Source: Saccharicrinis fermentans DSM 9555 = JCM 21142
GTDB taxonomy: Bacteria > Bacteroidota > Bacteroidia > Bacteroidales > Marinilabiliaceae
Assembly (NCBI RefSeq): GCF_000517085.1
Contig: NZ_KI912107.1
Location: 1,674,398-1,738,397, forward strand
Direction: 5' to 3'
DNA: 64,000 bases
The notes beneath the pieces were generated by a model, which saw only the letters and a list, made by a program, of their open reading frames with translations, did not search any database and was not told the origin of the DNA. A program made the translations under genes and the position numbers. This document shows positions 37,830 through 39,518 of the stretch, piece after piece; the first letter of the stretch is position 1, and each line of letters starts with the position of its first letter.

Positions 37830-37912
37830 GGGGAGATACCAAAGCGGCCAACTGGGACGGACTGTAACTCCGTTGTCTTACGACTTCGCAGGTTCGAATC
37901 CTGCTCTCCCCA
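37830..37912 (+). tRNA. tRNA-Tyr (anticodon GTA)
   Basis: Acceptor arms GGGGAGA/TCTCCCC, a long variable arm as in class II tRNAs, GGTTCGAATCC T-arm, and anticodon GTA at 37864-37866. No encoded CCA. A TACATTTG box at 37811-37818 is a likely promoter. Confidence 0.95.
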
Positions 37913-37996: not shown

Positions 37997-38069
37997 GCGA
38001 AAGTAGCTCAGCTGATAGAGCATCAGCCTTCCAAGCTGAGGGTCGCGGGTTTGATCCCCGTCTTTCGCT
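37997..38069 (+). tRNA. tRNA-Gly (anticodon TCC)
   Basis: Acceptor arms GCGAAAG/CTTTCGC, anticodon stem TCAGC/GCTGA with loop CTTCCAA (anticodon TCC), T-arm GCGGGTTTGATCCCCGT. No CCA. Probably cotranscribed with tRNA-Tyr and ends at the terminator directly downstream. Confidence 0.95.
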
Positions 38070-38075
38070 CTAATA

Positions 38076-38110
38076 AAGCCATCTAATATAAATCGGATGG
38101 CTTTTTTTTT
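38076..38110 (+). terminator. Terminator of the tRNA unit
   Basis: AAGCCATC (38076-38083) pairs with GATGGCTT (38096-38103) and is followed by a run of T. Confidence 0.9.
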
Positions 38111-38216
38111 AGAATTTGTTCGTCATTTCTACACAAAGAGGATCACGCACAAAAGTTGGGTCTGTTGAAAAATAAGTATTTGTTTATCTGTTAAATAGAA
38201 ACGGATAAAATAAATT

Positions 38217-38947
38217 GTGAAAGAAGAACTATCATTGGAGCTATCGGTGGCTCTATTTTTACCAGCAGGAATATTAGATTATTTCCAGATCGTATCCTAT
38301 CGGAAATCTTCAAGCGGAAAGCATATTTTAAACTAAGGATTTGAAGTTAAGGGTGTTGATATTCTATTTTAATAATAATTTCAAGTATAACGAAAGTCTT
38401 TACAATTTATCCATAACCATATTCAAGAACTCTCATCTAAAGGATATCTTCTATTAATGTACAAAGCTATCAATTAATGAACCGCAGGGTTGGCCAGAAC
38501 AATAGCCCCGGGGCCGACGTTGCCGAAAAGCTTCCCTGGGCGCACTTGAGGTGGTAGTGCTGTTGACCTAGCGCGAAGGAAGTGTGCGCCGGACGGAAAG
38601 GGAAGTTGATGCAGGGCAGATAGTGATCTATTGTTCTAGACCTTTTTGGTCCTTTTATGGCAATGATAATAACGAAGTTATCATGAGGACCTTTGAAAAC
38701 AAGCCTTTCCGAGTAAATTAGCGAAGCTTATTCATGAGGACCTTTGAAATAAACCTTTCCGAGTAAAAAGGACATTAACGCAAGTTTCAAAAGCAAAGAA
38801 AATTATCATATAAGTTAGAAACATTGCTCTCGATTAGATAACGGAAGTACCAATGCTGCAGCAGAATCTTTCAATGCAAAAGTAAAGGATTTCAGAAGGC
38901 AATTCAGAGGTGTTGTTGATGTAAATGAGGAGCAAATCTCCTTATAG
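38217..38947 (+). pseudogene. Decayed ISAon1-type transposase, two fragments
   Basis: The first fragment (38217-38336, GTG start) encodes about 39 residues, KEELSLELSVALFLPAGILD and on, like the ISAon1 N-region protein, and then stops. The second (38834-38947) encodes NGSTNAAAESFNAKVKDFRR and on, the conserved end of the ISAon1 transposase. The catalytic middle is missing and replaced by about 500 nt that include a GC-rich structured segment. The element is dead. Family assigned from memory of the NAAAESFNAK ending. Confidence 0.65.
38482..38765 (+). ncRNA. Candidate structured non-coding RNA
   Basis: A GC-rich block in an AT-rich gap with strong nested and crossing complementarity. GTTGGCC (38489-38495) pairs with GGCCGAC (38512-38518), CTTCCCT (38531-38537) with AGGGAAG (38599-38605), and GGCGCACTT (38539-38547) with 38580-38590. 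A perfect 10-nt match, AGAACAATAG (38496-38505) to CTATTGTTCT (38628-38637), would make a pseudoknot. Two direct repeats follow (about 38673-38715 and 38722-38765), each starting with a CGAAG hairpin and sharing ATGAGGACCTTTGAAA and CCTTTCCGAGTA. I do not recognise the class. Confidence 0.5.
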
Positions 38948-39053
38948 CACATAGGCCAGATGGCTCAATAAGTAGAGATTTTTACACCCTCAATAATCTT
39001 TTTCTCTATTTCTGCGTTAAAGGAATACAACATACACGATAAACGACCTAGTT

Positions 39054-39518
39054 ATGTCCTTTGATAAAGAAGAAAGATTAAACGAACTATATACTGAATT
39101 TAATCGCACTGATGAATTTTATGCACAATTCAGAAAACAATTCAATACTGTCATCATAGATGTGGTTTTAGATTATTACCCAGGATTTAAACAAAAAGAT
39201 GTTCTAAATGATATGATAGATCAATATGCCAGTGAAATATTAAGTGCTACAGAATCGGTCTTATACAAAGACAAAAATTACCCCAAATACAGAAAGCTAG
39301 AAGAAATAGAATATATGGATCGTTTTTTAAATAAAGAAGAAGTCATCGCTAACCCTGATGAATTTTCGGAGACGACACATAAAATAGTAAAAGCCTTCAT
39401 TGTTTCTCAATATCAGAACATCATTCATTTGTCTGCCCAGGGCTTTAGATTACTCGAAAGATATATGAAGATGCATTTGATGGCTTTTATTTCTCAATTT
39501 TTGTCTTTTGTAAAATAA
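39054..39518 (+). CDS. Hypothetical protein, helical
   Basis: A 154-aa soluble protein, rich in charged and aromatic residues, predicted by eye to be mostly helical (NELYTEFNRTDEFYAQFRKQ, EILSATESVLYKDKNYPKYR). No signal peptide, membrane segment or motif that I recognise. Start ATG in a GTT-ATG context after the transposase relic; it ends about 50 nt before the helicase-like gene. Codon use looks normal for the genome. Function unknown. Confidence 0.6.
   Translation: MSFDKEERLNELYTEFNRTDEFYAQFRKQFNTVIIDVVLDYYPGFKQKDVLNDMIDQYASEILSATESVLYKDKNYPKYRKLEEIEYMDRFLNKEEVIANPDEFSETTHKIVKAFIVSQYQNIIHLSAQGFRLLERYMKMHLMAFISQFLSFVK

Follow-up and report, generated by a model that had tools for sequence, protein, structure and literature searches.

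The locus

The window analysed here is a stretch of 64,000 nucleotides from Saccharicrinis fermentans DSM 9555 = JCM 21142 (contig NZ_KI912107.1, positions 1,674,398 to 1,738,397). It includes remnants of an ISAon1 insertion sequence enclosing a GC-rich block, which is one copy of a structured repeat unit. The features of this copy are given below in window coordinates, with G, C and L numbers designating genomes, contigs and loci (G000 is the host genome); model R1 and alignment A3 are described in the following sections.

38140..38168, +, ISAon1 left end (terminal inverted repeat) of a non-autonomous carrier, identical to the left ends of L035, L037, L038 and L040
38217..38333, +, fragment of the ISAon1 upstream ORF (NCBIfam NF049916, E 0.0015, 19 bits)
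38340..38480, +, AT-rich leader of the repeat unit, left limit approximate, with similar or variant leaders among the 5′ flanks listed from the 102 copies whose flanks were extracted
38481..38773, +, structured RNA core (candidate ncRNA) with an insert in its last hairpin loop (match to model R1; alignments A1 and A3)
38492..38515, +, helix P0, GGCC 38492-38495 with GGCC 38512-38515 (93.9% of cells paired, zero double changes)
38496..38505, +, 5′ strand of helix P1, pseudoknot partner at 38628-38637 (perfect 10-nt inverted match; covariation)
38628..38637, +, 3′ strand of P1 (inverted match; covariation)
38530..38606, +, helix P3, 38530-38537 with 38599-38606 (8/8 pairs covary, 95.2% paired)
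38539..38590, +, helix P4, 38539-38545 with 38584-38590 (six pairs intact in 30/30 own-genome rows)
38636..38641, +, CTAGAC box, opening a pattern found again in named Bacteroidota genomes
38643..38647, +, U-tract 1, candidate third strand of a U.A-U triple helix (four of five positions invariant and the fifth nearly so in A3)
38649..38773, +, terminal hairpin P5 (96.3% paired), with 5′ arm 38649-38656, loop motif GGCAATG 38659-38665 and 3′ arm 38765-38773
38670..38763, +, two direct repeats of ~50 nt with CGAAG hairpins within the P5 loop, missing in L040 and differing in copy number in L042 and L022
38774..38833, +, repeat-unit trailer, common to L035, L037 and L040
38834..38926, +, 3′ fragment of the ISAon1 transposase gene (NF049917, G000:C3:1713231-1713323, E 4.2e-9, under the cut-off)

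A preliminary sequence-only reading had described the block as GC-rich and pseudoknotted within a dead ISAon1 element. Its GC content is indeed 54% at 38450-38599, compared with 28-40% in the neighbouring 150-base windows on each side (chosen clear of the block and of the upstream tRNA genes). The perfect 10-nt long-range match (38496-38505 with 38628-38637) and its crossing with another stem, the GGCC/GGCC helix whose loop contains the P1 5′ strand, were both recovered, as were two further complementarities corresponding to P3 and P4, and the direct repeats at 38681 and 38732, 51 nt from start to start. The ISAon1 setting was also correctly recognized: the ORF fragment upstream matches the ISAon1 N-terminal region (NF049916), weakly and below the cut-off of 55 bits, and the stretch downstream matches the transposase (NF049917).

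The same reading had argued that the block holds more structure than decayed DNA should keep. Taken as an amount of folding this argument fails, because the block, folded by itself, is no more stable than its shuffled versions (z -1.21 for 301 nt and z -0.91 for 176 nt). That the block is not decayed is nevertheless borne out by the covariation of 49 aligned sequences presented below: it is a real structured element and not decay noise.

In an Rfam 15 scan of the window, two tRNAs and nothing else scored above the gathering threshold. No RNA class was matched on the element either at that threshold or with E values up to 10, the best match touching the core having an E value of 2 and the best within 38100-39060 one of 0.46. 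Neither group I nor group II intron models matched the element in these scans, which leaves the suggestion of an intron-like nature unsupported, and a scan of the loci of 18 relatives likewise returned two tRNAs only and no RNA family on the element. Two tRNA genes lie directly upstream of the element in the window (37830-37912 and 37997-38069). In the same-genus genomes G002 and G006, the ribH and helicase matches are almost adjacent and leave no space for those two genes.

A dispersed repeat family in the host genome

A BLAST search of the host genome (5.98 Mb, 4 contigs) with a 301-base query returned 114 pieces, many of them clustered, and the 3′ motif has 81 exact matches, split 41 to 40 between the two strands. 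The element is thus a dispersed, partly tandem repeat family with ~80 copies in this genome. Some pieces make up a complete unit (model positions 1-199) and others are partial modules that break off near model positions 54 and 120-127; additional sequence occurs in the terminal hairpin loop. Tandem arrays include four whole units spaced 384 bp (L026) and three units spaced 624 bp which, by eye, adjoin the end of an IS66-like transposase (L027).

Inspection by eye also revealed further repeats within the units. The window's ~50-bp CGAAG repeat is present at about seven copies in the P5 loop of L042 (3620-3985). A second repeat, CCCGG..ATGCATTAGAA..TTCTAATACATC..CCGGG, substitutes either strand of P3 in some copies (L037 3280-3340, L039 3383-3555 and L043) and is itself swollen by another palindromic repeat.

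No partner gene common to the different lineages was found among the ORFs near copies. Those which recur, again by eye, are the element's own translations, IS66 and IS21, a tyrosine recombinase, and members of large paralogous families, e.g. a sensor-kinase-like protein (6 loci) and UvrA/ABC-ATPase-like proteins (7 loci). This bears on the idea that the unit is an omega RNA guiding a TnpB-type nuclease, an idea which its size, pseudoknot and link to IS elements would suit. Such a guide is extremely improbable given that the TnpB domain PF07282 occurs in 0/9 genomes, six of them with copies, that copies have no lineage-wide partner gene beside them, and that the flanks, among those listed, are variants of leader and trailer and not guide-like. 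The domain count largely refutes a TnpB omega RNA.

Copies flanked by ORFs on both sides in named genomes (n=73, from loci L115-L231; related copies are not independent) were codirectional with both neighbours in 32 cases, against both in 7 and mixed in 34.

Covariation supports a pseudoknotted fold

The covariance model R1 was constructed from 30 of 41 distinct full-length copies obtained from fetched stretches of the host genome, the window copy itself (match at G000:C3:1712878-1713081) being among the 30 rows. The 49 rows of alignment A3 are 13 copies from the host genome together with 36 relatives selected among 102 R1 hits, from which we omitted those that were near-identical, partial or weak. 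It was made with mafft and no structure fitting, and the helices were picked with these sequences in view. In the window row, A3 aligns the 3′ arm of P5 to the start of the loop insert; the true 3′ arm is that given above (38765-38773).

Over the five helices the covariation score is 0.429 compared with 0.153 ± 0.008 in shuffled alignments (0/500 shuffles reached it) and at most 0.112 in slid controls. Paired cells amount to 91.1% versus 74.0 in shuffles and doubly changed cells to 285 versus 104.6; the number of pairs with a double change is a weak measure in this control (23 versus 19.4, reached by 2/500 shuffles). The pseudoknot helix P1 is 98.8% paired with double changes in 7/9 pairs, and P3 shows them in all eight. 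As P0 has none, the evidence for the crossing is sequence conservation for one of the two helices and covariation for the other. P4 is 67.1% paired over A3; it is therefore not shared by the Marinilabilia type, and was rejected as a general helix on this figure. In the own-genome alignment, 8/46 predicted pairs carry double changes. Among 23 listed sequences, two flavobacterial subgroups with 12 and 7 members have long rods with the same 3′ module and doubly changed predicted pairs in 26/50 and 16/57 cases, their homology to the window's family resting on this shared module and its position and not on a full alignment.

Covariation beyond both the shuffled and the slid controls shows, on comparative grounds, that selection preserves this fold on one strand. 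That strand is most likely RNA, to judge from the pair types: G-U pairs outnumber A-C pairs by 91 to 28 over the five helices and by 37 to 11 without P4, an excess which favours an RNA from the window's + strand. By helix, G-U and A-C pairs number 5:1 in P1, 28:3 in P3, 54:17 in P4, 2:5 in P0 and 2:2 in P5.

A dispersed repeat rich in stem-loops could equally be read as a single-stranded DNA structure recognized by a REP/HUH (Y1) transposase, with no RNA involved. We consider this very unlikely, since the G-U excess argues against it (the order being reversed in P0 and even in P5) and since Y1_Tnp is found in 53/71 genomes of the family and does not track the repeats. The host genome, which has most copies, has four Y1_Tnp matches, and the two listed are one of E 1.5e-8 with internal stops and a partial one of E 4.1e-8. 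REP/RAYT membership was rejected for the same lack of correspondence between Y1 transposase and repeats.

The best explanation of the body is that it specifies a structured candidate RNA of ~170-205 nt with a GGCC hairpin whose loop would engage in the long-range pseudoknot P1, followed by an inner rod (P3, plus P4 in the window's type), the CTAGAC box, the U-tract and a U-A hairpin with a GGCRATG loop.

The 3′ module

U-tract 1, the P5 U strand and the P5 A strand together contain 12/27 of the invariant columns of A3. Covariation in P5 is seen in some outer and the loop-closing pairs and does not extend to the five inner U-A pairs. With its nearly invariant U-tract adjoining nearly invariant U-A pairs, the 3′ end may form a triple helix.

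The lengths of the two elements are related (Spearman 0.55 for the 182 hits whose lower stem has no more than one mismatch). Among 198 hits, none of the 56 with a stem of 6 or more has a tract shorter than 6, and none of the 77 with a 5-nt tract has a stem longer than 5. Against a length match, a 6-nt tract accompanies a 5-bp stem in 53/198 hits; a few of the listed hits are spurious. This relation fits a U.A-U triple helix. It could also reflect lineage effects, the search pattern used for the named loci, which required at least 5 T in both tracts, or a protein needing both tracts.

A patchy distribution in the Bacteroidota

R1 matches 22/71 genomes of the family, the host included; as at most 34 candidates were scored per genome, copy numbers for each are lower bounds. 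At the level of the order it matches 21/393 genomes, again including the host, the others more weakly (E 3.7e-12 to 9.9e-4). The exact motif occurs in 4/395 genomes sampled across the phylum (host included), a lower bound because the exact pattern detects fewer genomes than the model does (15/71 compared with 22/71 in the family). Among eight genomes of the same genus, two have both the exact motif and an R1 match (G003, G007), two have R1 matches alone (at least 1 in G002 and at least 7 in G008) and four (G001, G004, G005, G006) have neither. One of these, G004, retains the genes flanking the window's site, yet has no R1 match anywhere.

A search of named genomes for the motif returned at least 117 stretches. 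The 80 listed are mostly from Flavobacteriales, with others from Cytophagales, Saprospiraceae, a Chitinophagaceae MAG and Marinilabiliaceae, and a few from SR1/Patescibacteria MAGs that may be misassigned contigs. Four Patescibacteria/SR1 or unassigned MAG contigs (L120, L126, L171, L186) carry the 3′ motif with a different upstream part, by contamination or transfer. There was no match in phages and plasmids, and the exact motif had 0 matches in viral contigs. To judge from these matches, the RNA-shaped family is patchily spread over several Bacteroidota orders.

These counts are relevant to the proposal that the unit is a regulatory or scaffold RNA useful to the host and amplified in some lineages. 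The strong constraint on the fold speaks for such a role, as does the bias of copies towards the direction of neighbouring genes, which a pure passenger reading leaves unexplained. We nonetheless hold it to be unlikely, since the distribution is patchy at family, order and phylum level, since half of the same-genus genomes have neither motif nor model match, and since the units form tandem arrays and are carried by transposons.

ISAon1 derivatives as carriers

The host genome contains 47 NF049917 stretches, including that at window 38834-38926. One is full-length, with one TGA reported in it, and one more passes the cut-off only if joined with its neighbours; the downstream fragment of the paralogous locus L039 scores E 1.1e-37 and 130 bits against a cut-off of 250. 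A scan of 39 own-genome sequences located ISAon1-type elements with both ends at six separate sites. All four RNA carriers among them (L035, L037, L038, which is the same as L251, and L040) have terminal inverted repeats and perfect 8-bp target duplications (ACTATGTA, GAGAATTT, TGGATTAG and TAATTCCA, respectively), as MITE-like ISAon1 derivatives do. The RNA-less L252, with only an inner-type right end, and L253 show no target duplication. Five RNA-tagged loci (the window copy, L029, L249, L250 and L255) have a left end and no located right end, and the end scan found no ISAon1 ends in arrays such as L026.

L038 starts with the left end and the transposase region; a first right end comes next, then leader-RNA-trailer, a 3′ fragment of the transposase and a second right end. 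The shorter carriers look like internal deletions of an L038-like composite. As their 8-bp duplications show, RNA-carrying ISAon1 derivatives have, on this comparison of ends, transposed in the host genome. The suggestion that the element had landed in this one dead IS is thus unsupported; the RNA unit appears to have been captured within ISAon1, whose derivatives then transposed. The window copy, with no ISAon1 right end within 2.6 kb, is an ISAon1-borne derivative that lacks a recognisable right end and is probably now immobile.

Other vehicles in relatives

In the Marinilabilia group (G029, G038, G011 and G048, together with G020 from a neighbouring genus) the core lies in a unit of ~392 bp with ends GGGYTTGCTG..CAGCANCCC. 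The hexamers flanking six such units, compared by eye, are identical in 1 case and show 5/6 identity in 5, a likeness to which a target preference may contribute, as most are TANNTA-like; the automatic scan for these ends gave 3 rows, one of them spurious, and the remaining units were identified by eye. One copy in G029 (Marinilabilia salmonicolor MSL42) is absent from the collinear site of G038, which is not a clean empty site because the gap (about 570 bp) exceeds the unit. In Labilibacter sediminis, a core lies between perfect 15-nt inverted repeats TGTCATTAAGTTAAG..CTTAACTTAATGACA at one locus (L107) only, with no target duplication established and with partial forms elsewhere. Related cores are thus shown by their flanking sequences to lie between different terminal repeats, in the Marinilabilia group and at one clean L. 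sediminis locus. This combination of a conserved body with changing ends is the main reason for regarding the RNA unit as probably the cargo of non-autonomous transposons.

The transposon ends might instead be incidental, if the RNA, like a SINE, were reverse transcribed and inserted by a reverse transcriptase acting in trans, for example that of group II introns. The conserved 3′ hairpin would suit such a process, group II introns occur near some arrays, and the host genome has 29 RVT_1 matches compared with 1, 0 and 2 in the copy-free G001, G004 and G006. G029, however, with at least 31 model matches, has 2 RVT_1 matches, the same number as the copy-free G006, and the RNA carriers are flanked by target duplications of DNA-transposon type. 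We therefore judge this route decidedly unlikely. Group II introns at L030, L036 and L039 are near the repeat and outside it. At L025 (12887-17070, contig C4 of G000) a reverse-transcriptase-like gene with its RVT_1 match at C4:16237-16674 appears by eye to be interrupted by an IS66-type transposase gene of opposite orientation.

A structured RNA as probable transposon cargo

Our preferred reading, to which we assign a probability of about 0.62, is that the family consists of non-autonomous repeats with a structured RNA body carried as transposon cargo. The RNA unit would be a selfish passenger captured repeatedly by DNA transposons and moved in trans by the transposases of these host transposons, while recombination between copies would generate the tandem arrays and mosaic units. 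The RNA would be transcribed, and its conserved 3′ module (U-tract, U-A helix and GGCRATG loop) may form a protective triple helix that stabilizes the transcript. The data describe a unit that is structured and carried; that it is carried because it is structured is a further step, which we infer.

A more specific and tentative version, which we place on the unlikely side, is that of a selfish Bacteroidota RNA module that switches between DNA-transposon vehicles, with selection keeping the pseudoknot and the 3′ U.A-U clamp because a stable transcript promotes the spread of its carrier. We know of no earlier bacterial transposon RNA with an ENE-like stabiliser, and if this version is true, the vehicle-switching RNA would be the first.

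Comparison with known systems

The bodies of MITEs are normally regarded as inert filler separating the two ends. In the present family it is the body that is conserved, with base pairs covarying in several lineages, and the ends that vary, which raises the question of what role a structured RNA has for the transposon or the host. Modular repeats are also known from Streptococcus, where BOX elements include a variable number of ~50-bp middle units. They differ from the present element in sequence, and the ~50-bp units here are located in one hairpin loop of a covarying RNA. A Porphyromonas gingivalis MITE that contains a minisatellite provides a Bacteroidota example of a MITE with internal repeats, and the accessible part of its description (PMC4596501) includes no structured RNA core.

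The mobile/repeat sequence candidates, MRSC (Nucleic Acids Res 2024 52:5152, PMC11109978), are similar in that, in the part of that study available, they are structured covarying motifs with many copies per genome, sometimes near transposases. The example described there, MRSC-65-2, is a single long stem, in contrast to the pseudoknot, inner rod and U / U-A terminal module found here; this contrast concerns that example and not the other 249 MRSC motifs. The ENE of a plant retrotransposon RNA, according to the available part of PMC12501189, forms a triple helix which clamps the poly(A) tail. The likeness is that of a triple helix in a transposon RNA, a candidate triplex in our case, and the difference is that the A-tract is here inside a hairpin and not in a poly(A) tail.

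Among RNAs of the Bacteroidota, Flavo-1 (RF01705), as presented in the accessible parts of PMC9723704 and PMC2864571, is also a repeated structured RNA; it stayed below the Rfam threshold in the loci of 18 relatives. The Bacteroidota small RNAs Rfp18 (PMC9723704) and FopS (PMC11697453) were considered at the level of their descriptions. The motif strings were found in one unrelated paper only, and no description of the element was found in the literature searched, to which subscription journals and preprints did not belong, or in the accessible part of PMC8040213.

The sequence-only reading's proposal of a self-contained, pseudoknotted structured element is thus upheld by the many genomic copies, the covariation of homologues and the absence of an Rfam match. 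By these comparisons we regard the transposon-borne structured candidate RNA family as real and as absent from Rfam 15, the comparison extending to Rfam and not to the non-Rfam motifs of Weinberg 2010 (e.g. GUCCY-hairpin). It adds to the RNA repertoire a probable family that is spread patchily across several Bacteroidota orders and unseen by Rfam 15 annotation.
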